Shown here piece after piece: positions 1-10,254 of a DNA stretch of 10,254 bases. Position 1 is the stretch's first letter. Every line of letters starts with the position of its first letter. The stretch is from assembly GCA_019308985.1 (NCBI GenBank), contig JAFDHB010000129.1, positions 1-10,254 on the forward strand, written 5' to 3'. The translations under genes were made by a program, and so were the position numbers. Source of the DNA: Deltaproteobacteria bacterium. Its GTDB lineage: Bacteria > Desulfobacterota > DSM-4660 > Desulfatiglandales > HGW-15. The notes below the pieces were generated by a model. It did not search any database. It had not been told where the DNA came from and saw nothing but the letters and a program-made list of their open reading frames with translations.

Positions 1-114
1 ATCTCGTTGTGATTGCGGCGTACGGTAAGTACGCCTCATCACACGAGATTTGCGCGCCTTGAACTTGAAGCTTTTTACTTTGCCATCTCAATTTTGACTT
101 TTTACGAGTTCATC
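1..114 (+). repeat. palindromic repeat, copy 1 (left end cut by the window)
   Basis: This is the right three quarters of a short interspersed repeat found three times in the window; the others are at 5011-5163 and, inverted, 9793-10033. Alignment to copy 2 starts about 40 bases into the element, so its left end lies outside the window. It contains the central near-palindrome GGCGTAC-n5-GTACGCC and ends in ATTTTGACTTTTTACGAG plus TTCATC. The right end overlaps the 3' end of the small leftward ORF 88-243 and supplies that ORF's last residues and stop codon. It has no coding capacity and no transposase. Confidence 0.9.
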
Positions 115-243
115 CTTCTTGGATGACACCAAGTCTTCAACATGTATCAACAACTCTTCAAGGGCCTTGATAATCTCCGGGAGGGCTTTTGATTGGTCTC
201 TTCGATGGGATCCATCACCTCCCCTGTCTTTCTCAGCGGGCAC
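88..243 (-). CDS. small helical protein, 51 aa, last gene of the GTPase operon
   Basis: This leftward ORF begins with GTG at 241-243, preceded by a GGAG ribosome site seven bases upstream, and ends with TGA at 88-90. The protein starts MPAEKDRGGDGS and continues with an amphipathic stretch (SKALPEIIKALEELLIHVEDL), which reads like real protein. It lies 21 bases after the stop of the HAMP sensor and in the same frame, separated by three stop codons (TAG TAA TAG). The final residues (DELVKSQN) come from the flanking repeat, so an originally longer gene was probably cut and re-terminated by repeat insertion. No family was recognised. It could also be a decayed remnant of a domain once downstream of HAMP. 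Confidence 0.5.
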   Translation of the reverse strand: MPAEKDRGGDGSHRRDQSKALPEIIKALEELLIHVEDLVSSKKDELVKSQN

Positions 244-264
244 TTTGATTCTCCGTCCCTATTA

Positions 265-1428
265 CTATCTCCTCCGCTTCAATCGTTCTATTGAGAGGCG
301 AATACTGTCCTGCATACGGGAGATTGCCTCTGCCAGCATCCCCAGCTCATCCTTGGACTTGACTTCTATTTCAGCGCTCAACTCACCGATGCTTATCCGT
401 TCGGTTACCTCCGTCAGGTGCTTTATTCTAGAGATGAGCCTTTGCCCGTAAAGGGAGACTATGAGGCCGATCAGGACCAGAGTGCCGGCCAGGATTTGCA
501 TATTCATGTTTCTGGTCCTAAGGGTCAGGTCCTTCGCCTTTTGTTCCAGGATGTTCATAGGCATGGTAAACTCATCAAGATATGTAGTGCTAGCGATGAC
601 GAAACGGGTCCCCTCCACGGGTGTGCAGACCATGAACTTGTCCCTGAAACGACCGTCTTTGTCCTGCCACGTGTAATAACCCCTGGATTCCTTGCCGTTT
701 CTGACCCCAGTATAGACCCTCCAAAAACCGGGGAAGGCCTTCCCCAGGGGTTTCGCCAATTTGCTCATATCAATCTCGATAATCTTGGGATTCACGTGGG
801 CCCAAGTTCTCCATACCCCATCGGATCCCGGCAATTCGTACAGGGCGGTATACCCTGTCCTTCCCACCTTTTGAACGGCAATTTTCTTGAATTCCGCATT
901 GTTGTTGAAATTCTCCTTCTTCAGATCCCTGTGACTCTCCAGGTAAAGGCTGGTCTGTTTGGCAACGGATCTCGCGTTCTCTGCAATCACTGTCTCTGCC
1001 AATTGGGTCGCAGCCCTGGTCCCCTCATTGGTGATAAAATCAGACAGGGCGTAGATCTGCTTCATGTAGAAGAGACCGGCCCCGGCCATCAAAATGATAG
1101 GGACGCATACGAACAAGACGAACATTTTGCCCCTTAGACCGATACGTCCTTTCCTCAAGGAGCGCCTAACCCTTCTTGCTCCCTTTTCCGAGACCTCTCT
1201 TGCCTCCTTGCCGGGTGAAGGGGCCTGGGCCTCTGATGGAATTCCATTTCCCGGATTGGGACTGGAGGGCATGGCCGGTGTCTCAAGGGTCTTTGTCTCA
1301 GACATCCTTGGTTTTCTTATGGTGATTACCTGACCGCAGGCCTTGCACCTGGACTTTGCCGTATCCCCTTTTATCTTAGAAATATCAATTTGGTACTTCT
1401 TCCCGCATTCTTCGCATATCACTATCAT
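265..1428 (-). CDS. membrane sensor: zinc ribbon, Cache-like domain, HAMP, no output domain
   Basis: This is a predicted inner-membrane signal sensor of 387 residues. It starts with a short cytoplasmic zinc ribbon of the MJ0042 type (Cys5, Cys8, Cys28, Cys31), then a Pro/Ser-rich linker and a basic stretch ending about residue 100. TM1 is at about 102-122. A periplasmic Cache-like sensing domain follows to about 305, with the family-typical VGRTGYTALYE strand at 188-198 and a long helix after TM1. TM2 is at about 310-328, and a HAMP domain spans about 329-381. The protein ends straight after HAMP, with no kinase, methyl-accepting or cyclase domain. I chose the ATG at 1426-1428 because GAGGT lies at a suitable distance and zinc ribbons of this kind normally begin MIVxCexC; a GTG at 1443 is the alternative. 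It is last or next-to-last in the MglAB-like operon, so its output is probably passed by HAMP or the zinc ribbon to a partner protein (inference). Confidence 0.85.
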   Translation of the reverse strand: MIVICEECGKKYQIDISKIKGDTAKSRCKACGQVITIRKPRMSETKTLETPAMPSSPNPGNGIPSEAQAPSPGKEAREVSEKGARRVRRSLRKGRIGLRGKMFVLFVCVPIILMAGAGLFYMKQIYALSDFITNEGTRAATQLAETVIAENARSVAKQTSLYLESHRDLKKENFNNNAEFKKIAVQKVGRTGYTALYELPGSDGVWRTWAHVNPKIIEIDMSKLAKPLGKAFPGFWRVYTGVRNGKESRGYYTWQDKDGRFRDKFMVCTPVEGTRFVIASTTYLDEFTMPMNILEQKAKDLTLRTRNMNMQILAGTLVLIGLIVSLYGQRLISRIKHLTEVTERISIGELSAEIEVKSKDELGMLAEAISRMQDSIRLSIERLKRRR

Positions 1429-1643
1429 GGTATCAAACCTCACTGTTATGTCTTGCTCGCATTTACCACGCCACCCCGGGGCTTAACGCACCATTGGGCG
1501 GCACAGCAAATCCTGGCGCGATTACCCTTGCAAAGCCAAAACCACCCGCAAGCCTCTGCCGGGAAAAAACCCGAAATCCTGTCCGGGGCGCTCACAGCCC
1601 GGTCCAAAAAGCCTCCGGTGTTCCATTTGTGTTGTGGGTGCCA
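1429..1643 (-). other. 215-bp gap inside the operon, GC-rich hairpins
   Basis: This is non-coding DNA between the winged-helix gene and the sensor gene, and the longest gap inside the leftward operon. It holds several short GC-rich inverted repeats, such as CCGGG-n10-CCCGG around 1578-1597 and CGGG-AAAAAA-CCCG around 1560-1573. None has the long stem plus T-run of a convincing terminator. Internal transcription of the sensor is possible from the weak candidate promoter at 1459-1472. Confidence 0.4.
1459..1472 (-). promoter_or_regulatory. weak candidate sigma-54 promoter before the sensor gene
   Basis: On the minus strand there is GG-N10-GC spacing in the context GTGGCGTGGTAAATGCGA. Only about 9 of 14 defined consensus positions agree, so it is far weaker than the promoter at 4176-4192. 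A start near 1447 would leave about 20 bases before the ATG at 1428. It may be chance. Confidence 0.2.
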
Positions 1644-2114
1644 TCAGTACCCTTTTTCATTCATCTTGCTGATCAGGGCCTCCTCAAAGCTGATCCTGTT
1701 TTCATCCCTGGGGATCTCTTTGGAAAGGGATTCAACCACTTCTGAGACCCTGTGACGCGGTATCTTTTCCGGTTCGATCCCCAGGTCTTGGAGGACATCC
1801 TCAATGAGAATCTCTGCAATCGGCCCGACGGCGATGGAAAATTCAGCCTTCAGAAAATCCAAGAAATCTTCTTCCACAAGAGAAGCAGGCGTCTCAACCC
1901 TCTCGACTATCTGAAGTTCCAGGAGCCTCAAGACCATGCTCCTGATTTCACCGAGCCTTATTCCGAGTTCCTTGGCAACGGTGGCCAGATCCTTTTTGCC
2001 GTCAAGAAGCAGCAGGACCTTCAGCGTCATGCCATCAAGGGACAATTCGCCAACATCGCCTTTGAGGGCCGGTTTGAATACTGCCCCGGCAACCTCTGAA
2101 GGGGAAAGCGCCAC
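1644..2114 (-). CDS. winged-helix plus GPIA-type helical domain protein
   Basis: This is a soluble protein of 156 residues with two parts. Residues 1-75 resemble the winged-helix-like module seen in gliding and polarity regulators (GELSLDGMTLKVLLLLDG, then a helix-turn-helix-like stretch ATVAKELGIRLGEIRSMVLRL). Residues about 82-156 match a small all-helical domain often found at the C-terminus of bacterial signalling proteins, with the hallmark AVGPIAEILIED and a later KEIPRDENRISF. The start is GTG at 2112-2114, preceded by AAGGGGGGA. It is the fourth gene of the operon. DNA binding is not assured, because winged helices in such proteins often bind proteins instead. I infer an adaptor or regulator working with the GTPase or sensor; no specific function is recognised. 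Confidence 0.75.
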   Translation of the reverse strand: MALSPSEVAGAVFKPALKGDVGELSLDGMTLKVLLLLDGKKDLATVAKELGIRLGEIRSMVLRLLELQIVERVETPASLVEEDFLDFLKAEFSIAVGPIAEILIEDVLQDLGIEPEKIPRHRVSEVVESLSKEIPRDENRISFEEALISKMNEKGY

Positions 2115-2211
2115 TACAATCCCCCCTTATTATGCCTATCCCACTGGTACACCACCGATTCCACTTGATCGGATCTCCAACCTGATGGGCCTCCACATTT
2201 ACCTCGTGTGT

Positions 2212-2955
2212 TCATTGATCTCTGGTCCGTTGATTTAGAGACTCTTCCATCCATTTTCTCAATTCGGACCTAAGGGCATTCAGCTCTCCGGTAATATAAT
2301 CTTTTATCTCTTCGACAGCCGCAAGAAGGAGCTGGTTGGATTCCAGAGCCTGTTGCATTACTTTTCTTCGTGAAGTGACCTCGGCCTCTGTCCCAGGTGT
2401 GGGGGCTATATCAGTTGTCCCGCGCTTTTCACCGCGTTCCGGCTCTTGGGGATGGTGCTGAGCAGGGGTAATGGCTGGAGACGGTGATTTGGACTTCTTG
2501 CCTGCTGTTATCTCCCGCTTCAGTTCATTGAATCGCTTGATTTCCGCAAAGAGGATCTTTTTTCTTTCCATTTCAGGGGCACCCTTAAGGCCTACGACCT
2601 TTTCGAGGCTATTGTAAACGGAATTCAGTAGTCTGATTGCATCCGGGTGCGCCTTTCCCTTCTTTTTCCTGACATAACCACCCAGGGAGCGCAGTAGTTG
2701 CAGGAAGGCGAGAAATATCTTATCACCATGATATTTGGCCTTCAATCTCTCGACTTCGCCTATAAACCGGGTCATTACCTTGTCTGTGATTTCCCAATCA
2801 ATGGACAGGACTTCGGCCTTTAAATCCTTGAGCGGTTCGGTCCCTTGCCCTCCGTTCCCCTCTGCTTCGAGGGCGGGCTGGGCACCCGTTGAGGCCGATG
2901 TTTCCGGTGGATTCCTCGATTCCATCTCTAAAGAGCCACGTTTTTGTTCCGGCAA
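2212..2955 (-). CDS. helical/coiled-coil protein encoded next to the MglA-like GTPase
   Basis: This is a soluble protein of 247 residues. After a low-complexity Pro/Gly-rich N-terminus (1-42) comes a helical domain at about 43-152 (AEVLSIDWEITDKVMTRFIGEVERL, then a lysine-rich GGYVRKKKGKAHPDAIRLL). A low-complexity linker follows at 153-192, and an amphipathic, probably coiled-coil, C-terminus at 197-240. The start codon is TTG at 2953-2955 with AAGGAG eight bases upstream; the ATG at 2925 has a poorer ribosome site. The start overlaps the end of the GTPase gene by 28 bases, which suggests translational coupling and a shared complex. No enzymatic motif was seen. A scaffold or effector of the GTPase is the natural guess, from position only. 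Confidence 0.75.
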   Translation of the reverse strand: MPEQKRGSLEMESRNPPETSASTGAQPALEAEGNGGQGTEPLKDLKAEVLSIDWEITDKVMTRFIGEVERLKAKYHGDKIFLAFLQLLRSLGGYVRKKKGKAHPDAIRLLNSVYNSLEKVVGLKGAPEMERKKILFAEIKRFNELKREITAGKKSKSPSPAITPAQHHPQEPERGEKRGTTDIAPTPGTEAEVTSRRKVMQQALESNQLLLAAVEEIKDYITGELNALRSELRKWMEESLNQRTRDQ

Positions 2956-3572
2956 TTCATGTTCTCCTTTTTCATTTCTTTCTTGAGAGGTTCCAGGGTG
3001 AGGAGGATAATCTTTTTCAAGGTCTGGACTACGTTTTGTCCGGTTATGGCGCTCGCAGGGAATGATGGCGCCTTGAGCTTACTGTTCAGGTCTCTTTCCA
3101 TTGTCTCAAAAGGAAGAATGGGCATTCCCTCTTTCTCCAAGTCTCTTTTGTTATATTGCATTACCAGGGGGGTTTTGAACAGGCTCTTGCCATAGGAAAC
3201 CAGGTTTTCCTGGAGGTTTTTCAGGGAGAGGAAGTTGTACTTGCGCCTCACTTCCAGGGAGTCGGCAACAAAGACGATACCGTCAACTCCCCGTAATACC
3301 AGGCGGCGGGTGGCATTGTATTTTATCTGGCCAGGCACGGTGTACAGTTGGACCTTGACTTCAAATCCGCTGATCTTCCCGAGGTCAAAGGGAATGAAGT
3401 CGAAGAAGAGGGTTCTGTCACCGTGAGTCTTGATAGCTACCATTTCCGCCTTGATACGCGTCTTGAATTTTTCGTGGATATAAAGGAGATTCGTGGTCTT
3501 ACCACCCCTTCCCGGGCCATAGTACACGATCTTTATCTGGATCTGTTTCTGCCTCAAGTTAACGAATGCCAT
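2928..3572 (-). CDS. mglA: MglA-like Ras-superfamily small GTPase
   Basis: This cytoplasmic GTPase switch resembles Myxococcus MglA, which in its GTP form marks a cell pole and drives motility or positions protein complexes. The motifs are in order: P-loop GPGRGGKTT at 19-27; GDRTLFFDF around 51-59 with Arg53; TVPGQ at 78-82 in place of the usual Ras DxxGQ, with Gln82; NKRD at 141-144; and SAITG at 174-178. Arg53 and Gln82, which serve in catalysis in Myxococcus MglA, are kept at the same residue numbers. It is 214 residues long, about 20 more than that protein, with a lysine-rich tail (LKKEMKKENMNCRNKN). It lies downstream of a Roadblock gene, the same order as mglB-mglA. The true role here (motility, polarity or other) is not shown. 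Similar GTPases also occur in non-motile bacteria, so the symbol is family-level. Confidence 0.93.
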   Translation of the reverse strand: MAFVNLRQKQIQIKIVYYGPGRGGKTTNLLYIHEKFKTRIKAEMVAIKTHGDRTLFFDFIPFDLGKISGFEVKVQLYTVPGQIKYNATRRLVLRGVDGIVFVADSLEVRRKYNFLSLKNLQENLVSYGKSLFKTPLVMQYNKRDLEKEGMPILPFETMERDLNSKLKAPSFPASAITGQNVVQTLKKIILLTLEPLKKEMKKENMNCRNKNVAL

Positions 3573-3647
3573 AACTCGAAATCGCCAAATGCTGCCTGTT
3601 AAAGAAAGAGCAACAGGTACCTCGGATTAGACTGGAAATGCCGCTTC

Positions 3648-4040
3648 TTATGGCGCCAGGATTTTCTCTACCTTCTCTATGGCCTCACCCACCTTCAATC
3701 GCAGAAAGCCCAATGATATGTCTTTTCCAAAGATGGTGATCAGTAGGAACTCATCCAGTACTTTGCTGAAGTGGATACTCTCCTTTTCTCCCTTGTGGAA
3801 GAGCAGAGAAAACTCATCCTCACCAATCATCTTTGCCATGGTGCTAACAGCACCAAAATTACCAGCGGCAAGGGCTGCAAGCGAATAGGCATCGTGTCCT
3901 ATCTTGCCGTCATTAATGTTGGATATGACATTGCCTGCGATATCAATCAGCAGTACACAGCTGACTTTGAGATCAAAAATCTCTTCCCTCAAGATTTTTT
4001 CGATCGCATCAAGTTGTTCCCCTGAAAGTGCAAAGGTCAA
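3648..4040 (-). CDS. mglB: Roadblock/LC7 (MglB-like) GTPase regulator
   Basis: This small cytoplasmic protein of 130 residues has the Roadblock/LC7 fold: N-terminal helix (ALSGEQLDAIEKILREEI), then VSCVLLIDIAGNVISN, the helix HDAYSLAALAAGNFGAVSTMAK, the strand SLLFHKGEKESIHFSKV, and FLLITIFGKDISLGFLRLKV. In Myxococcus, MglB is the GTPase-activating partner of MglA, binding as a dimer. The neighbouring GTPase gene, 75 bases downstream, suggests the same pairing. I chose the TTG at 4038-4040 because AGGAGGGG (4046-4053) sits five bases upstream; the ATG at 4083-4085 would add 15 residues and has no such site. It is the first gene of the operon, about 125 bases after the predicted sigma-54 start. 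Confidence 0.88.
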   Translation of the reverse strand: MTFALSGEQLDAIEKILREEIFDLKVSCVLLIDIAGNVISNINDGKIGHDAYSLAALAAGNFGAVSTMAKMIGEDEFSLLFHKGEKESIHFSKVLDEFLLITIFGKDISLGFLRLKVGEAIEKVEKILAP

Positions 4041-4175
4041 CAGGTCCCCTCCTCTACCGGGGCCGAAGCTCAGGATCAGGTGCATGGCCCTTTTTCCATA
4101 GGTGGCCCCAAAATATCTTCTGGTCTGAGAAAGCCGGCTTCTGGGGAAGCTATGTGTGTTATATCTTGGGGATTC

Positions 4176-4192
4176 TGCAAAATCCGTTCCAA
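4176..4192 (-). promoter_or_regulatory. sigma-54 promoter of the mglBA-like operon
   Basis: The minus-strand sequence is TTGGAACGGATTTTGCA. Against the sigma-54 consensus YTGGCACGRNNNTTGCW it matches 13 of 14 defined positions, with one A for C, and has exact GG-N10-GC spacing. Transcription would start near 4165 and run into the Roadblock gene after an untranslated leader of about 125 bases. Sigma-54 promoters need an enhancer-binding activator, so the operon is probably switched on by a specific response regulator encoded elsewhere (inference). Confidence 0.75.
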
Positions 4193-4265
4193 GTCAACAC
4201 ACTCCCCAGGTTCTCTGTTTTCAGGCCTTTGAAAGACATAAATGTATCCAATTCTAGCGAAAACT

Positions 4266-4299
4266 GACAAAAAATGTTTTGTATTTAACAAAAATTGTC
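4266..4299. promoter_or_regulatory. AT-rich nested inverted repeats, candidate activator site
   Basis: The block begins GACAA and ends TTGTC, and holds an inner inverted repeat TTTTGT-ATTTA-ACAAAA (4277-4293). It lies 100-135 bases upstream of the predicted sigma-54 start, where enhancer-binding activators usually bind. The AT-rich setting makes chance symmetry possible. Confidence 0.35.
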
Positions 4300-4619
4300 T
4301 TCTTGAGATAAAAATAGAGATAAAGTTGCCCAAAGCTGGTATTTATTCGTTGGATTGCAAGGCGACCTTCCGCGCGGTAGGAGATTTTCAGCACTATAGA
4401 TGGGAGCGGTTCCAGGGAACGATGCGGGATAACGGCCTTGGATAATCATTCCTATAGCTGGTTATGGCCCATGGAAGGTCTCTTTCACCATGTCCATGCA
4501 TGATGGGCTGGCTTGTGGCATCCCCTGGACCGGGGCTTACTGAGGCTTCTGCAAAATATGGGTTTTTTGGCGGGGTAGAATTCGTCGTGCATTCTCGATG
4601 AGGGCTCATAGGCGTTTCC

Positions 4620-5051
4620 TTAGCCTGGATCGGACGCGTCAAACTTGACTATGACCAGGGTGATATCATCTTCCAGGGGAAGACCCTGCATAAAACTATG
4701 GATCTCAGCATAGACTGCATCAACTATTTCATGGGCGGTTCCGTTGGCATAGCGGCGGATAATATTCATAAACCTTGCTTTACCAAACATCTCTCCTTTC
4801 GGATTCATGGATTCCCAGATCCCGTCCGTTCCTATTGCTATGACAGATCCTTTTTGGAGCCCATGCTTTTGGTATTCGTCATATTGATATTCTTCATCCA
4901 GCCCAAGGGATATGCCTTTGCCCCCCCACTCCTCGAAATCATCTCCGGATGGGTCATACACAATGGCAGGGTCATGCCCGGCACGTACCCATTTTGCAAG
5001 ACCTTTCCTTGATGGCTTCGTAAAAAGTCCAATTTCTGCGTTGCGCTTCAC
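4620..5051 (-). pseudogene. C-terminal fragment of an RsbU/SpoIIE-type PP2C phosphatase
   Basis: From about residue 15 this fragment matches the last third of a serine/threonine phosphatase of the RsbU/SpoIIE type: WVRAGHDPAIVYDP, then GISLGL, KGSVIAIGTDGIWES with the metal-binding TDG aspartate, NPKGEMFGKARF, and the closing LPLEDDITLVIVKF with the second aspartate pair. Such enzymes dephosphorylate anti-anti-sigma (STAS) proteins. The first residues (KRNAEIGLFTKPS) are translated from the repeat at 5011-5163, and no good ribosome site precedes the ATG. It therefore looks like a beheaded remnant, not a working gene. The matching N-terminal half lies on the other side of the repeat (5164-5703) in another frame, and about 100 central residues are missing. 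Confidence 0.85.
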
Positions 5052-5163
5052 CTCGTTGTGGTTGCGGCGTACACTAAGTACGCCTCATCACACGAGATTC
5101 GCGCGCCTTGAACTTGAAGCTTTTTACTTTGCCATCTCAATTTTGACTTTTTGCGAGTTCGTC
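5011..5163 (+). repeat. palindromic repeat, copy 2 (complete, 153 bp)
   Basis: This is the most complete copy of the repeat. Its ends are imperfect inverted repeats: GATGGCTTCGTAAAAAGTC on the left and, read from the other strand, GACGAACTCGCAAAAAGTC on the right (13 of 19 identical; 16 of 19 using the right end of copy 1). The centre is a second imperfect inverted repeat, CTCGTTGTG...GGCGTAC against GTACGCC...CACACGAG, so a single strand can fold into a long cruciform. It lies exactly between the two halves of a broken PAS-PP2C phosphatase gene. It resembles a non-autonomous MITE- or REP-like element; no transposase in the window explains its movement. Confidence 0.9.
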
Positions 5164-5703
5164 AAAGATAATCAAAATAGTCACCTCCCACCTACTCACA
5201 GGAAATACTCCTCCCACTGACATCAAGACCCTCCACAGGTGGAGCGCTTTGAGGCAGCAAGTTCTTCTGGACTTCGGCCGCAAGGGCAAGAGCCTTCTTG
5301 TGTTCGGTCATATCCGTAACAAAGGCCATATTCCCGATGACCCTTCCTTGGTCATCACTGAGGGTGTTGCCGCGGAGGAGGACAGGAACACTGCGGCCTT
5401 GGCCTGCAAGGAGCCTTCCAACTCGCGATACTCCTGTGATAGGATATTATCCCTGTGGGAGAGCACATAGGCCTTGAATTCATCGGTGGCAAGATCAAAG
5501 GGCATTTTACCGAGAATCTCCTCTCTGCTACACTCATCGTTTCTCGATCCTTCAAGACATCCAATCCAATAACCTATTGAACAATTCTCGCGAATCACGC
5601 GAGCTGGACGCAAGCCCTTCAATGCAAAGAGCTGGAACAGCCGCTCTTTACCGCAATGAGACTGGAAAGCTGATTGGAAAGGCGGACCTGGACGCTGCGG
5701 CAC
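5164..5703 (-). pseudogene. N-terminal half of the broken PAS-PP2C phosphatase
   Basis: Read leftward, this stretch holds a PAS domain and the start of a RsbU-type PP2C domain in two frames. The first frame gives ECSREEILGKMPFDLATDEF and SHRDNILSQEYRELEGSL. After a one-base shift near 5395-5415 the second frame gives GQGRSVPVLLRGN, GRVIGNMAFVTDMTEHKKAL, and then the PP2C hallmarks AAEVQKNLLPQSAPP and SGRSISCE-stop-VGGDYFDYL. The stop is an amber TAG at 5192-5194, where the family normally has a sense codon (a CAG to TAG change would fit). The reading ends in TGA exactly at the repeat border. The original start is unclear. Pyrrolysine read-through would not restore the gene, given the frameshift and the missing core. 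Confidence 0.85.
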
Positions 5704-5826
5704 CCAAACGTTCCGTGCCCTATACGGGAAAAATGGGTTCCTGGAGTTAGGAGAGCCAACTCTATGATTGATATTCTATTGCGTTATTTATCCGGCAGTG
5801 ACTGGCGAGGGATTGTGCAGAGGAGT

Positions 5827-6213
5827 TCAGGCCTTGGCATAAATTCCTCGCCTCGGGCTTTTGAGCTTGCCTTGCCTCTTGAGCCTGTTTACGATGTCCC
5901 AGATTTTCTTTTCGGGTAATCCTGTCTCTGCCTTGATCTCAGCAGTCGAGAGTCCGGTCCTGCTACCCTCGATAGCACTCAAAACTGCGTTTGTCGCCGT
6001 TTGTCTCTTGCTCTTCTTTACTACAGGGACAGCCGTTCTGCGCGAAGGCCTTTTTCGGGCGCGTGTAGGCTCCCTCTTCCCGCTATCCGTGGGCTGCTCG
6101 ATTATCAAGGCCTCCTCGAGGTTATCCAGCAGTTTTTGCATGTCCTTGGTCTTTTGTGTCAGTGCCTCAAGCCCCTTCTCCACGGACTGGAGCACTCTTC
6201 GTAAAGCAAGCAT
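5827..6213 (-). CDS. small basic protein with coiled coil and C-terminal winged helix
   Basis: This predicted DNA-binding protein has 128 residues in three parts. Residues 1-40 form an amphipathic, probably coiled-coil helix (LQSVEKGLEALTQKTKDMQKLL). Residues 43-72 form a very basic linker (TRARKRPSRRTAVPVVKKSKR). Residues 74-126 form a winged-helix-like domain (AVLSAIEGSRTGLSTAEIK, GLPEKKIWDIVNRLKRQGKL, then RRGIYAKA). The start is ATG at 6211-6213 behind a strong AGGAGG. The layout suggests a chromatin-like or general regulatory protein, in the style of bacterial histone-like proteins with a basic linker, but no target can be named. It is transcribed leftward towards the broken phosphatase, which begins about 120 bases later. 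Confidence 0.75.
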   Translation of the reverse strand: MLALRRVLQSVEKGLEALTQKTKDMQKLLDNLEEALIIEQPTDSGKREPTRARKRPSRRTAVPVVKKSKRQTATNAVLSAIEGSRTGLSTAEIKAETGLPEKKIWDIVNRLKRQGKLKSPRRGIYAKA

Positions 6214-6419
6214 ACAATTTCCTCCTTGTCTAATATCTATCAGCTGACGGATGTTGCGCTGATTATCCGAGCGGCCCTCCGGCCGGCTCTCAATGTGCCC
6301 CGTTTACCTTCCTCCTTCTTTGACTTTTGCCAATTTTCTCACAGTTGATCACAAAAATGTTCTTGCTGTCAATAACTATTCTAATCCATTGAATTTTACT
6401 CTTAGGGCCGTTTTCCAGG

Positions 6420-6710
6420 TCATTCCGTCTCATTTAGCTCCAAGTATGTTTGAGCATGGGGCATCATCCAGTGATCTTCCCAATGCTTGGCCAGGCGCTT
6501 GGTAAAGGCCCCCTTGGAAGCTAGCTCATTGTCGAGGAGATATCTATCTGTCTGTTGATTCAAGACCAGTAGACAAGCTGCAGTGACCGTAAACAATTGT
6601 TCGGTAGAATCAAGAGTGTGAAGCCTCTCCTGAGGACAGCCGGATAACCCGGCACCGAATTTCTCCAGATTCTTCTTACTCAGCCTCAAAGAGGACTCTT
6701 GAGAGGTCAT
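6420..6710 (-). CDS. hypothetical protein, 96 aa
   Basis: This is an open leftward frame with protein-like composition (LSKKNLEKFGAGLSGCPQERL, TEQLFTVTAACLLVLNQQ, DRYLLDNELASKGAFTKRLAK), but I do not recognise a family. I chose the ATG at 6708-6710 because the upstream GTG (6740) would place translation inside the palindrome 6716-6747, which looks like a promoter or operator. The ribosome site is weak for either start. The hydrophobic TVTAACLLVL stretch is too short and mixed for a sure membrane segment. The nearby palindrome suggests it could be auto-regulated or divergent to the PilZ gene. Confidence 0.45.
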   Translation of the reverse strand: MTSQESSLRLSKKNLEKFGAGLSGCPQERLHTLDSTEQLFTVTAACLLVLNQQTDRYLLDNELASKGAFTKRLAKHWEDHWMMPHAQTYLELNETE

Positions 6711-6715
6711 ACTAC

Positions 6716-6747
6716 ATATTGTGCCTTTTTTTCTTGACACACAATAT
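6716..6747 (+). promoter_or_regulatory. palindromic operator/promoter, copy 1
   Basis: ATATTGTG (6716-6723) and CACAATAT (6740-6747) are perfect inverted arms around a 16-base T-rich spacer. A consensus -35 box, TTGACA (6734-6739), abuts the right arm. A poor -10 candidate, TATTTA (6757-6762), follows at 17 bases. Transcription would run rightward towards the PilZ gene. A near-identical arrangement occurs at 10193-10225, so both probably bind the same regulator. Confidence 0.55.
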
Positions 6748-6863
6748 TTTCCACGCTATTTATCCTCAAAATAAGGCTATCCCCTAGAGATGCCGCGTTG
6801 AAGGTCAATTGTTGCGGATCTACTAAGGAAAAAGGAGGGAATTCCTTCCCGAATCCCTTATGA

Positions 6864-7295
6864 ATGGATATGGGGTTTGGTCAAGAGCTATCTCCCGGTG
6901 TGGATGATAGGTTACACCCTGGCACTATGGAAAAACACAAACAGTATGATCGGAGAGCGAACCCAAGGTATAGGACCAAAGATGAAACCTTTGCCTATAT
7001 AAGGAACCATTTCAGTATGGTTGGGCGAATCAGGGATGCCAGCCTGGGAGGCTTGGCCGTTGAATGTGCCTCCAGCCACGATAAGGGAATAGAGGGAGAC
7101 ATCGAAGTAGATATCTTGGTCAGTACAAACGGCTTTTCATTGCTCAGGATGCCCGGGAGGATCGCCTGGAAGGAGGACGTGTTAGGTCAGGGACCCGATG
7201 GAACGAGGAGACTGGGAATAGAGTTCAACCGGCTCAGCAAGAACCAGGTATCCAGACTGAAGTATTTTTTGATGCATCACACGGAAGCAGGCTAA
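6864..7295 (+). CDS. PilZ-domain protein (c-di-GMP effector)
   Basis: This is a single-domain PilZ protein of 143 residues. The c-di-GMP contact motifs are intact: RxxxR at Arg31-Arg35 (RANPR) and DxSxxG at Asp58, Ser60, Gly63 (DASLGG). The later strands are typical (MPGRIAWKED, RRLGIEFNRLS), as is the closing helix (QVSRLKYFL). It should bind cyclic di-GMP and pass the signal to a partner protein, since it has no other domain. The ATG at 6864 gives the longest form. The ATG at 6927 (MEKHKQYDRR) is equally likely, because the first 21 residues have no domain function and neither start has a good ribosome site; an AAGGAGGG at 6829-6838 is too far away. It is isolated by about 210 bases from the next gene. 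Confidence 0.85.
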   Translation: MDMGFGQELSPGVDDRLHPGTMEKHKQYDRRANPRYRTKDETFAYIRNHFSMVGRIRDASLGGLAVECASSHDKGIEGDIEVDILVSTNGFSLLRMPGRIAWKEDVLGQGPDGTRRLGIEFNRLSKNQVSRLKYFLMHHTEAG

Positions 7296-7484
7296 CTGTA
7301 AGACCAAAGACGACTCCACATCTGCCGAAGAATCAAACCTATACCGATTCCACTCGCACCCAACACAATGGTGAAGATTTTTGTCTTGACTCAAAAAGAG
7401 ATGTTAGATAGTGATCATTGACAAGGGCGCTTTTGACTCCTAGGACAAAAGAATAGGGTTAAGGGGCCCAATTGGTTCTAAGGA

Positions 7485-7496
7485 TCTATAGATCTT
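7485..7496. promoter_or_regulatory. 12-bp perfect palindrome before the DsrE-like gene
   Basis: GATCTATAGATC is a perfect palindrome directly before the ribosome site (GAGGAAAG) of the gene at 7508. It could be an operator, an mRNA hairpin affecting initiation, or chance. Confidence 0.25.
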
Positions 7497-7507
7497 GAGG
7501 AAAGTTC

Positions 7508-7813
7508 ATGAACAGGATACTTGGAATATACGTCAGTTCTGACGACCAGCTGGATAGATTGATTGAGCTGTGCCAAGCGGCAAAGAACAAAGGGGTAGAG
7601 GTAACCGTTTTCCTGACCCATATCGCCACGCGTCTCACCCAGGAGGCCCGTTTCAACGAACTTGTCGGCCTTGCAAGAATATTCGTATGCAAGGTGGGAT
7701 TTGAGGCGAACAACTTGAAGCGGCCCGTCCCCGGCCTGGAAGACAGGGCCTATGCGTCTCAATCACAGAACGCCGAAATCATTCACGATTGTGACAAGTA
7801 TATTACCTTTTGA
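7508..7813 (+). CDS. DsrE/TusD-like sulfur-relay family protein
   Basis: This 101-residue protein has the DsrE-like alpha/beta fold: strand LGIYVSS, helix DQLDRLIELCQAAKNKGVEV, strand TVFLTH, helix LTQEARFNELVGLA, strand IFVCKVGFEANN, and C-terminal strand DKYITF. DsrE-family proteins carry sulfur as a persulfide on a cysteine and work as DsrEFH or TusBCD complexes. Candidate cysteines are Cys61 (FVCKVG, near the family's active position), Cys22 and Cys95. The start has GAGGAAAG six bases upstream. It is first of three small genes that match the DsrE, DsrF, DsrH order. Assignment is by fold pattern. A role in sulfite reduction or tRNA thiolation cannot be decided here, because no dsrAB or tusA/mnmA is in the window. 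Confidence 0.7.
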   Translation: MNRILGIYVSSDDQLDRLIELCQAAKNKGVEVTVFLTHIATRLTQEARFNELVGLARIFVCKVGFEANNLKRPVPGLEDRAYASQSQNAEIIHDCDKYITF

Positions 7814-7852
7814 TTCTGAAAGGATTTGCACTCCTCTGAGATGAGGCAAAAA

Positions 7853-7864
7853 GCGGGATCCCGC
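7853..7864. promoter_or_regulatory. 12-bp GC palindrome between the DsrE-like and DsrF-like genes
   Basis: GCGGGATCCCGC is a perfect palindrome in the 87-base gap. It can form a tight stem in the mRNA and might attenuate or stabilise part of the message. There is no T-run, so it is not a standard terminator. Confidence 0.3.
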
Positions 7865-7900
7865 CAAGTAATAAGAAGCAGGTGAGGAAGGGAATAGATA

Positions 7901-8203
7901 ATGGAGAACGTCAAGCACTGTGCTGTTTTGGTGAGAAGACCCGAGGACGTTTGGGAGGGAACCAGGACAAGCCTTGGGCTGGCTGCCCACAACTTTTATG
8001 CCTACCTGTTCGTAATCAACGTGGAAGTGGAAATGACGGATGCCCTGCGAGAAAACCTTGACTGGCTGGAAGAGATGGAGTGTGAGTATTTCACTAACGT
8101 GGAGAAAAATGGTGAACATGGCTTCAAGCTGATGTCTCTTGAGGCCATAGGCAAAAAACTGAGGGAGATGGACATGGTCATCCCCTTTGGGAAACGCGGT
8201 TGA
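7901..8203 (+). CDS. DsrF/TusC-like sulfur-relay family protein
   Basis: This 100-residue protein starts with the DsrF/TusC-like strand and turn [21 protein letters not shown] (family: hydrophobic strand, then RRPPYG...). A helix and strand follow ([20 protein letters not shown]), then FGK near the C-terminus. DsrF-type subunits usually lack the essential cysteine and act as structural partners; here Cys7 and Cys61 are present. The ribosome site is GAGGAAGGG. It lies 87 bases after the DsrE-like gene and 22 bases before the DsrH-like gene, which supports one transcript. The match is family-level and remote. Confidence 0.65.
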
Positions 8204-8225
8204 GTGACGCACCGAGGAGGAGGAG

Positions 8226-8411
8226 ATGGGGGATACGATTCTGCACATACTGAAGACAGAACCGGATGAAACACAGAAGGTTCTCATGGAAAGAATCTCG
8301 GAAGGCAGGAAAAGCTTGGAGTTTCTCCTTTTCGGTCATGAGAAAGGCGTGGATTACGAGAGGCTGATAGATCTGATCTTTGATTGCGATAAGGTCATCA
8401 CGTGGTGGTAA
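8226..8411 (+). CDS. short DsrH/TusB-like protein
   Basis: This 61-residue protein begins TILHILKTEPDE, resembling the LHxxxKSP opening of DsrH/TusB, and ends IDLIFDCDKVITWW, like the C-terminal valine/tryptophan strand of that family. It is markedly shorter than the usual 90-100 residues. It has no cysteine near position 20, where DsrH carries its sulfur-binding residue; the only cysteine is Cys54. The ribosome site is very strong (GGAGGAGGAG). Position after DsrE- and DsrF-like genes is the main support. It may be a minimal or divergent subunit, possibly using Cys54 instead (inference). Confidence 0.6.
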   Translation: MGDTILHILKTEPDETQKVLMERISEGRKSLEFLLFGHEKGVDYERLIDLIFDCDKVITWW

Positions 8412-8445
8412 GGGAACCCGTGACATCCAGGCCACAGGCATGCCT

Positions 8446-8796
8446 TCAGCCGTCATCGTATCTTGGTATGCACTTCACACACCAAAGGGACCAGTCAGGC
8501 CCTGGTCTTTCTACCACCTCCAGGATCTCCTTTTCGATCTCTTTCCTCACTTCTTCGGCAAGTTTGAGCTCTTCCAGTTTCTTGTCTGCAACGCTCCAGA
8601 ATATCCCCTGGTGAAAGGCTCTGATCCCGGACTCGTTGACCTTCAAGAACCTTTCTTCAATTGATCCCAGTGTGCTGACGATTCCTTCCTGTGGAAAGCC
8701 TTGGCCGTTAACGGTCCGAACGAGAAGGGCCTCCAGGAGAAACCCCTCGTCCCTCCTGCCTGATGTTATGCGTCTTCTTTCCCATATTACGTGCAT
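8446..8796 (-). CDS. hypothetical protein, 116 aa
   Basis: This leftward gene is convergent with the DsrH-like gene (34 bases between stops). The protein is a soluble, charged sequence: EGFLLEALLVRTVNGQGFPQ, EGIVSTLGSIEERFL, then a helical region (VADKKLEELKLAEEVRKEIEKEI) and a tail with CVKC. The pattern of a strand, a basic turn, a glutamine and then xxLGSI recalls short uncharacterised proteins of bacterial genomes in which a VNGKxRQRxxAxLGSI-like stretch occurs, but I cannot assign a function. The ATG at 8794-8796 has a modest GGGTGG upstream. The cysteine pair near the C-terminus could bind a metal only with a partner. Confidence 0.6.
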   Translation of the reverse strand: MHVIWERRRITSGRRDEGFLLEALLVRTVNGQGFPQEGIVSTLGSIEERFLKVNESGIRAFHQGIFWSVADKKLEELKLAEEVRKEIEKEILEVVERPGPDWSLWCVKCIPRYDDG

Positions 8797-8963
8797 GAAG
8801 CCACCCAGTGAGAAATGAGTCCATATCTGCGCTTAATACCAAACCTATAGCACATTGTAGGATGTGATTGCAAGGGAGGTGCTACTTGACTCGGGGTGGA
8901 TCAGGGCAATAGCCTCAAACCAGGGAGGATGTAACAAAAACGGCAGCATTCGAGGGGAACAGG

Positions 8964-8999
8964 AAAAGCCGTCCCACCTGATGTGCCAGGCTGACGGCT
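8964..8999 (-). terminator. Rho-independent terminator of the djlA-like gene
   Basis: Two bases after the stop codon at 9002-9004 the minus strand reads AGCCGTC, a loop with an inner CCTG/CAGG stem, then GACGGCT followed at once by TTTT. The stem has seven perfect pairs (arms 8993-8999 and 8967-8973). The T-run is short but well placed. Confidence 0.6.
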
Positions 9000-9001
9000 A
9001 C

Positions 9002-9766
9002 CTAGAAGCCTCTTTCCTGTCTTATTTTTTCGTAGGCCTCCTGAATCTCGCGAAATTTTTTTTCGGCGAATTCGATGAATTCTTCTGGGAGACCTTTGGA
9101 TAGGATCCTGTCCGGATGGAATTCCTTTACGAGTTTCTTGTGGTTTGACTTGATCTCTTCATTGGTGCTTTGAGGGGTACAACTAAGCATCCTGTAATAT
9201 CGATCCAAGTCCTTGAAATAGAGGGCCTTAGTGCTCTCGTATTGCTGATCGCTGATCCTGAAGATTTCCTTTATCCTTTTTAGGGCAGCCTCTTCACCAG
9301 GATGTAATCCGCCGTCTGCCGCTGCGATCTGAAAGAGGAGATCAAGGAACGACAGGAGCACATCAGGCTGGTGCTTGGCGACCTGGTACATCTGGATTGC
9401 AAAGTCCTCTATGGAATAGGGGGAGTTCTTGGCCTGGTTGAATATCTGTTTGGCGAATTGTCTTTCCTCTTCAGTAATGGGCAACTGGTCGATAAAGCGC
9501 TGAACGACGCCTATCTCATCCTTTGTCACCAGGCCGTCTATCTTGGAAAATTTTCCTAAAATGGAGAAGAGGCTAATAAAATATGCGGCTTGAGTCTGCT
9601 CAAGATAATCGGGGACAGGCCCGCCGATTCTCTGGGTCTTCCTGGCCGCGACATCGGTTTTCTTGTCCACCATATGGTGACCGAGGGCAGCTCCCAGGAT
9701 AGCACCCAGTGGACCTCCCAGAAACATCCCCAGTGAACCGAAAGCCAGCTTTCCAAACCACCCCAT
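9002..9766 (-). CDS. djlA: DjlA-type co-chaperone (TerB plus J domain)
   Basis: This is a DnaJ-class partner of DnaK, 254 residues. Residues 6-30 are a glycine-rich hydrophobic stretch (FGSLGMFLGGPLGAILGAALG), probably a membrane anchor or glycine zipper as in DjlA. Residues about 58-165 are a TerB-like helical domain (FISLFSILGKFSKIDGLVTKDE; LDLLFQIAAADGGLHPGEE). Residues 189-254 are a J domain (YYRMLSCTPQSTNEEIKSNH) with the essential HPD at 217-219. This order and length fit DjlA. The J domain stimulates the ATPase of DnaK. The ATG at 9764-9766 follows GGGAG. A terminator follows the stop, and repeat copy 3 begins 26 bases upstream, so its promoter lies in or beyond the repeat. Confidence 0.9.
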   Translation of the reverse strand: MGWFGKLAFGSLGMFLGGPLGAILGAALGHHMVDKKTDVAARKTQRIGGPVPDYLEQTQAAYFISLFSILGKFSKIDGLVTKDEIGVVQRFIDQLPITEEERQFAKQIFNQAKNSPYSIEDFAIQMYQVAKHQPDVLLSFLDLLFQIAAADGGLHPGEEAALKRIKEIFRISDQQYESTKALYFKDLDRYYRMLSCTPQSTNEEIKSNHKKLVKEFHPDRILSKGLPEEFIEFAEKKFREIQEAYEKIRQERGF

Positions 9767-9792
9767 TACATTCTCCCAGCCTGAGCAAGATT

Positions 9793-10033
9793 GACAAGCT
9801 CGTAAAAAGTCGAAATTGGGATGGCAAAGTAAAAAGCTTCAAGTTCAAGGCGCGCGAATCTCGTGTGATGAGGCGTACTTAGCGTACGCCGCAATCATTT
9901 ACCCCGTTAAATAACTCCAGATTCAGAGGCCGTTCTTAGGTGCTCCTAGACCTCTGATTCAGCGCCACCAGTACCCATTAAACGGGGCAGGGATGAAGCG
10001 CAACGCAGAAATTGGACTTTTTACGAAGCCATC
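9793..10033 (-). repeat. palindromic repeat, copy 3 (inverted, interrupted)
   Basis: This is the same element as at 1-114 and 5011-5163, in the opposite orientation. The parts 9793-9897 and about 9992-10033 align with copy 2. Between them lies a foreign 94-base insert (9898-9991), which replaces about seven bases of the element. The outer ends (GACAAGCTCGTAAAAAGTC; and ACTTTTTACGAAGCCATC on the other side) keep the terminal inverted-repeat pattern. Confidence 0.9.
9898..9991. repeat. 94-bp palindromic insert inside repeat copy 3
   Basis: The insert has its own imperfect terminal inverted repeats, CCCCGTTAAAT (9902-9912) and ATTAAACGGGG (9977-9987), with one mismatch in 11. It also has an inner pair, GATTCAGAGG and CCTCTGATTC (about 9920-9960), imperfect when folded. 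It is too small to code for anything. No target-site duplication is visible, and about seven bases of the host repeat are missing. It is probably a second kind of small mobile or REP-like element. Confidence 0.65.
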
Positions 10034-10192
10034 AAGATTTGACTCTGCAAATTTAGCAAATGGAGGGGCCGGAGTCAAAGGGCATAACGAGAATTTAAGT
10101 GGAAATTGTATGGAAACTGCGAAAGCGGTTCTGATCCAAAGTCCGGGACATTAATAGATGAGCGCAAACATCAGCCTTGATTTTTTTTCTAT

Positions 10193-10225
10193 ATATTGTG
10201 CCAGTTTTTTCTTGACACACAATAT
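10193..10225 (+). promoter_or_regulatory. palindromic operator/promoter, copy 2
   Basis: This is the same layout as at 6716-6747: ATATTGTG (10193-10200), a T-rich 17-base spacer, and CACAATAT (10218-10225), with TTGACA at 10212-10217. A -10 box is likely within TATACACT (10233-10240; TACACT at 17 bases, or TATACA at 15). Transcription would run rightward out of the window. The driven gene is not visible. Confidence 0.6.
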
Positions 10226-10254
10226 ATTCTGGTATACACTTCAATTGATCATTC

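Follow-up and report, generated by a model that had tools for sequence, protein, structure and literature searches.

Several described systems come close to the operon reported here. In Myxococcus xanthus, the GTP-bound form of the GTPase MglA, which works with the Roadblock protein MglB, binds the TPR protein SgmX, and SgmX in turn localises PilB (PMC7519303 and PMC11580455, in the portions of text available); SgmX and PilB are separate proteins, and mglA is placed by the available text away from the genes for partners such as AglZ, FrzS, and RomR. Af1503 of Archaeoglobus fulgidus is a receptor that ends at its HAMP domain and is coupled to STAC proteins such as the four-helix, GPx(x)A-containing Af1502, and it adjoins an MgtE-type transporter, as far as the accessible parts of its description go. 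Actinobacterial conservons (CvnA-D), again according to partial text, are operons that encode a HAMP-containing membrane sensor, a Roadblock protein, a small GTPase, and a functionally uncharacterised protein, the sensor CvnA being of the histidine kinase type and the GTPase belonging to Group 2. This study concerns a five-gene operon within 10,254 nucleotides (nt) of a Deltaproteobacteria bacterium of sulfate-reducer type (Desulfatiglandales; HGW-15), namely positions 1-10,254 of the forward strand of contig JAFDHB010000129.1 (GCA_019308985.1), a stretch hereafter called the window. The operon looks like a Myxococcus polarity module to which an Af1503-type receptor has been attached.

Five adjoining genes on the minus strand make up the operon (lengths in amino acids, aa; ORF, open reading frame):

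3648..4040, minus strand: Roadblock/LC7 protein, MglB-like (Robl_LC7, E 5.1e-8; 6hjm, E 1.4e-16; relatives of 130 aa; ORF open to 4085)
2928..3572, minus strand: MglA-like Ras-type GTPase of 214 aa (MglA 3t12/6h17, E 1e-53; conserved motifs)
2212..2955, minus strand: 247-aa adaptor candidate with a five-helix 'SIDWEI' domain, a disordered linker, and a C-terminal helix (family, alignments, and AlphaFold2 model)
1644..2114, minus strand: 156-aa protein with a winged helix and a STAC-like four-helix domain (Af1502-like fold, AVGPIA motif)
265..1428, minus strand: membrane sensor with zinc ribbon, transmembrane segment, Cache, transmembrane segment, HAMP, and tail (Zn_ribbon_4, HAMP, and Cache matches; ORF open to 1443)

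The 247-aa and GTPase genes overlap by 28 nt. This is the set that the initial annotation, made from the letters alone, had read on one strand (Roadblock, GTPase, coiled-coil protein, winged-helix/GPIA protein, and zinc-ribbon/Cache/HAMP sensor), and every member was confirmed, as were the Arg53 and Gln82 that it had likened to Myxococcus MglA. Its strong promoter was not borne out, positions 4000-4640 holding a single 9-of-12 match against 0.6 expected in shuffled sequence. The same annotation had taken a sensor encoded with a GTPase but lacking its own output domain for a new signalling arrangement; a HAMP-ending receptor is already known in Af1503, and it is the joining of such a receptor to MglA that is new. 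Literature searches, judged mostly from their listings and with subscription papers largely lacking, showed no work joining MglA to a STAC protein.

Conservation of the gene order was assessed with the 247-aa family alone as bait: of 196 stretches matched by the pattern [LF]SIDWEI[TNS], 155 could be confirmed, and from these the 80 best loci were retained. Where 700 nt or more precede the adaptor gene, the gene immediately 5' of it is a same-strand MglA in 74 of 76 loci (the exceptions are L042 and L045); where 1300 nt or more do so, Roadblock lies no more than three genes upstream in 73 of 74. The adaptor has at most 430 aa in 64 loci; 60 of these have 800 nt downstream, and the 156-aa gene is found within three genes downstream in 42 of the 60. 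All 36 short-adaptor loci that contain the 156-aa gene and a further 2 kb carry the sensor within four genes. The genes upstream of Roadblock differ between lineages, so the block was kept while its surroundings changed. The five genes are thus not chance neighbours, and the refutation allowed for in the initial annotation, that they would not be found together in other genomes, fails. Mere lineage synteny or chance could draw on the record titles, 79 of which refer to Deltaproteobacteria or Desulfo- groups and the remaining one to Proteobacteria alone, because of which linkage counts uncorrected for relatedness are inflated; the varied upstream contexts contradict it, as do the relocation as a unit in genome G004 and the presence of much of the gene set, in altered order, in L083 and L088-L090, and very little credence is left for it. 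Genome G004 carries the operon in two pieces at separate chromosomal sites, Roadblock-MglA at L128 and the adaptor through the PilB-like gene at L129, where a further MglA match has an internal stop and lacks its first 38 residues. MglA lies within 300 nt of 13 of the 20 weaker adaptor matches that were fetched, about 5.2 kb off in two, and outside the stretch in five.

Two separable modules appear to be joined in this block. None of the 16 loci with an adaptor above 430 aa carries a 156-aa or sensor gene downstream, although some of their contigs end there. Conversely, the 156-aa family was matched in 53 of 395 genomes of a phylum-wide search, and of 20 places fetched (chosen rather than random) 18 have a same-strand sensor-profile match no more than 300 nt away, 17 of them on the 3' side, while MglA or Roadblock was matched in only three of the stretches (L101 to L103). 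Seventeen of the 18 sensors are complete, with Pfam HAMP in 15 of 17 and Cache_3-Cache_2 in 11 of 17, and no kinase or chemoreceptor domain was found in the 17 at E 0.01. In L114, a long 156-aa-type gene and a HAMP-ending receptor are flanked by TRAP transporter genes, as a Pfam check established; neighbouring genes of similar sizes occur in L105 and L112, the Pfam check having covered L114 alone. Because long-adaptor loci occur without the 156-aa and sensor genes, and 156-aa-sensor pairs mostly without MglA, the window operon looks like the union of a GTPase module and a receptor-STAC module.

The closest solved relatives of the GTPase are Thermus and Myxococcus MglA (3t12/6h17, E 1e-53). It carries a P-loop GPGRGGKT (19-26), Arg53-Thr54, TVPGQ (78-82), and NKRD (141-144). 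Among 78 aligned relatives, R53, T54, and TVPGQ are kept in all 76 with letters there (two are gapped), N141 and D144 in 78 of 78, and K142 in 77; the P-loop is invariant except at position 23 (G in 58, C in 15, S in one) and at T27. Wuichet and Sogaard-Andersen (PMC4316618, available text) recognise Group 1 MglA by an Arg finger adjoining the G2 Thr and by a G4 motif [NT]KxD. Both features are found here (R53-T54 and NKxD) and the GTPase is therefore classed by its sequence as Group 1, a signature that it shares, together with a Roadblock partner, with the M. xanthus pair. The Roadblock protein itself matches Robl_LC7 at 5.1e-8 (33 bits against a cut-off of 23) and solved MglB chains at E-values from 1e-16 to 1e-6 (best 6hjm, 1.4e-16), and stays below the NCBIfam MglB equivalog cut-off (NF052242, named ...MglBThm) with 59 of 200 bits. 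Its more likely start is the TTG at 4040, five bases behind AGGAGGGG, which would give 130 aa as in many relatives.

The operon MglA is the only MglA at 1e-15 in three genomes with the long adaptor form (G005 to G007). Genomes G001 to G004 contain five MglA paralogues (L123-L127) that have no adjoining Roadblock, adaptor, 156-aa, or sensor match at E 1e-4 and are a second, different MglA gene set. Four of the five adjoin a receiver-DUF4388-profile match, and two lie beside a stretch of some 300 aa that the PilB-like profile matches.

The 247-aa protein belongs to a family of which 73 members were collected, the window's own included. Its five-helix domain (residues 43-155), in which SIDWEI is invariant, is followed by a disordered linker and then by a long helix at the C-terminus (191-246); block means of the AlphaFold2 confidence are 87-97 across the domain and 39-46 for some of the linker and of the N-terminal region. 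A structure search returned CheA P1 domains and designed bundles, which is not decisive. Natural fusions occur: the domain is fused to TM-HAMP (TM, transmembrane) in P0049 and P0058, and by profile in L025, whose 7.4-kb contig has no separate sensor, and it is fused to CheW in six of 20 distant relatives, the window protein having no CheW. We read the 247-aa protein as a putative tether of MglA to the receptor or to an array. In the 16 long-adaptor loci (L052, L058, L060, L065, and 12 others), several of the proteins have 700-1200 aa, three SIDWEI domains are present in 13 and two in three, and long acidic linkers are seen in the printed ones. Within one gene run, L083 holds both an adaptor-CheW fusion (5615-7012) and a receiver-DUF4388-Roadblock fusion (3296-4435).

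The 156-aa protein consists of an N-terminal winged helix (1-77) and a C-terminal STAC-like four-helix domain (81-151), with the AVGPIA motif between the helices at 82-96 and 100-110. The bundle resembles Af1502 in fold and motif, and GPx(x)A is present in 41 of 42 cases, the leading residue of LGPx(x)A being variable. Its profile matches the known STAC structure 5a1q weakly (E 0.49 to 0.51) with the motif aligned; sequence searches for STAC are reported by the authors of Af1502, in the text available, to fail even for that protein. The C-terminal domain is likely of the STAC type. In the loci fetched with this family, 19 of the 20 bait proteins have 260-281 aa, and three longer members scanned with Pfam (L083, L088, and L105) read DUF4388-winged helix-C-domain, the helix match in L083 being weak. 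An adaptor role, one of the two proposed in the initial annotation for the 247-aa and 156-aa proteins, fits these natural fusions (TM-HAMP and CheW for the one, DUF4388 for the other).

The sensor runs from a cytosolic zinc ribbon through a long linker, a transmembrane segment, Cache, a second transmembrane segment, and HAMP to the conserved tail RMQDSIRLSIERLKRRR, the transmembrane segments having been read from the sequence. Zn_ribbon_4 (1.8e-10) and HAMP (7e-11) match well, and Cache at 1.9e-4 is below its curated cut-off. The ATG at 1428 (387 aa), where most aligned relatives begin, is the more likely start. HAMP occupies residues 333-382 of 392 aa and is followed by no recognisable effector module, and neither HisKA nor HATPase was matched in the sensor at E 0.1. 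The window operon has components similar to those of a conservon, but since its sensor has no kinase domain, unlike CvnA, it is not one. Mean column identity in the tail is 0.91, and RMQ[DE]S..S[IL]ER is found in 33 of 37 close relatives. The L022 and L033 sensors are just 17-20% identical to the window's in the periplasmic part and 77-82% identical in the tail, so the input varies while the output end is fixed.

A zinc ribbon precedes the first transmembrane segment in 37 of 37 close sensors, and HAMP is thus not the sole cytosolic part. It is absent from 20 of 23 distant sensors; it was found in two of the seven that have MglA or Roadblock in the stretch and in one of the 16 that do not, and from this rarity the ribbon is taken to belong for the most part to the lineage of the window. 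Its best solved match is M. xanthus GltJ (AgmX; 7zok, E 5e-5), which a single review sentence in the available text names among MglA effectors (PMC12288465); the likeness concerns the ribbon alone. As in Af1503/Af1502, a HAMP-ending receptor is coupled to a GPx(x)A four-helix protein; what sets the window operon apart from that pair is the winged helix N-terminal to the STAC domain, the zinc ribbon on the cytosolic side of the receptor, and the addition of an MglA switch.

In relatives, further genes continue on the same strand, and the operon is not the self-contained pathway that had been proposed for it. Where the 156-aa gene is present and the sequence extends far enough, a 330-aa protein is encoded further downstream in 32 of 34 loci (without a Pfam match in the two members scanned), a receiver-DUF4388 protein in 30 of 31 (its domains having been verified in two), and one of 120 aa in 24 of 30. 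A PilB-like MshEN-T2SSE protein with an N-terminal TPR region is found in 25 of the 30 loci in which the receiver-DUF4388 gene is followed by 2.2 kb or more of sequence. For 26 of the 28 members of this family that were used, T2SSE and MshEN are present in 26 of 26 and TPR_14 in 19, and the NCBIfam PilB model gives the best E-value in all 26, with GspE second; in the member shown, PilB and GspE score 498 against 471 bits, both below curated cut-offs. The TPR region may liken the operons of relatives to the M. xanthus MglA-SgmX-PilB route, but here, unlike in M. xanthus, sensor, adaptor, and (in relatives) ATPase share one operon. The window itself has no PilB-like gene, the ATPase being known from relatives. 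In G001, the genome of locus L001, C354 is a near full-length PilB-like relative and C261 matches from position 209 only, both on contigs other than the operon's, and PilM and PilT family matches are strong. The conserved genes and the pilus motor suggest a route from an outside signal to pilus placement; for the window's own organism, a pilus output is predicted from the relatives' PilB-like neighbour and the SgmX route of M. xanthus.

Built on the observed gene identities, linkage, separable modules, fusions, Af1502 resemblance, and PilB-like neighbour of relatives, the best explanation, with a probability of roughly 0.45, is that the receptor acts through the STAC/winged-helix protein on the state of MglA and thereby on a pilus ATPase; every physical contact, the direction of signalling, and the ligand in it we infer. 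One module would be a polarity switch of MglA-type GTPase, MglB-like Roadblock regulator, and dedicated five-helix adaptor; the other would be the HAMP-ending receptor with the winged-helix/STAC protein in the role of a detached output domain. Binding of a ligand to Cache would turn HAMP and the conserved SIERLRRRR tail, and the STAC domain would read this change. The attached winged helix may then relay it to the Roadblock/MglA pair, setting the amount and place of GTP-bound MglA, which the 247-aa adaptor and the N-terminal zinc ribbon of the sensor could hold at the receptor. The output would be the type IV pilus extension ATPase (PilB-like, with TPR, at the operon end in relatives) acting with the receiver-DUF4388 protein. 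More specifically, and with rather long odds, the operon may encode a complete kinase-less pathway from receptor to Ras-like GTPase, in which the HAMP tail works via a detached STAC/winged-helix subunit that serves as, or controls, an MglA exchange or activating factor, and MglA-GTP acts directly on the pilus ATPase through its TPR. If true, bacteria would have their own equivalent of signalling from receptors to small GTPases, in which, as in GATOR1, the GTPase regulator bears a winged helix. Two open questions meet in this operon, namely what HAMP-ending receptors such as Af1503 target and which outside signals feed MglA-type switches; both can be tested directly in environmental bacteria through a conserved receptor/STAC/MglA operon whose versions in relatives include a PilB-like ATPase.

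The generality of this pathway is weighed down by the adaptor having been found in just 66 of the 395 genomes. Other assignments of the receptor are conceivable. It may sense solutes for uptake or chemosensing and share nothing but the operon with MglA, which would be fed by the receiver-DUF4388 protein or by a chemosensory array; this is possible but doubtful, given that all 36 loci with room have the receptor gene 3' of the 156-aa gene, on the strand of Roadblock-MglA-adaptor and downstream of those genes, and that three proteins combine the adaptor domain with TM-HAMP in one chain. The winged helix could also make the 156-aa protein a DNA-binding regulator through which the receptor steers transcription, MglA being merely co-expressed, which is considered unlikely. 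As to the output, the ATPase fits GspE nearly as well as PilB, both models matching 26 of 26, and MglA acts on gliding machinery too, so that type II secretion, gliding, or the division plane could be served instead of type IV pili. A strong PilM_2 match (251-270 bits) in seven of seven genomes points to pili, although the family was also matched in nine of 14 control genomes; PilT is above cut-off in three of three genomes, and the known MglA-SgmX-PilB route (PMC7519303 and PMC11580455, available text) argues in the same direction, leaving another machine improbable.

Two further features lie at the end of the contig:

88..243, minus strand: doubtful 51-aa ORF behind the sensor (reading frame; runs into the 112-nt repeat)
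3..114, strand not assigned: 112-nt repeat at the contig end (copies at 5052-5163 and, inverted, 9786-9897)

The reading frame of the sixth gene in the initial annotation is present at 88-243, but it ends within the repeat and is doubtful, and L001 has a different gene in this position. The repeat occurs in three copies (3-114, 5052-5163, and the inverted 9786-9897), and a 43-nt exact inverted pair lies at 5008-5050 and 9994-10036. The contig stops at the repeat, short of the point where the operons of relatives run on, and the copy behind the sensor gene may be the reason for this.

Beside another repeat copy, 4620-5051 encodes only the C-terminal part of a SpoIIE-type phosphatase; upstream of Roadblock in L001 (4583-6382) there is an unbroken PAS/SpoIIE gene of 600 aa. 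On the plus strand, 6864-7295 encodes a PilZ-domain protein (PilZ, 1.7e-10), and in L011 a PilZ gene likewise stands 3' of the PilB-like gene. Two small proteins of about 100 aa (7508-7813 and 7901-8203) gave no match in an NCBIfam scan and have look-alike neighbours in L001. Finally, 9002-9766 encodes a TerB/DnaJ protein with a weak glycine-zipper match.

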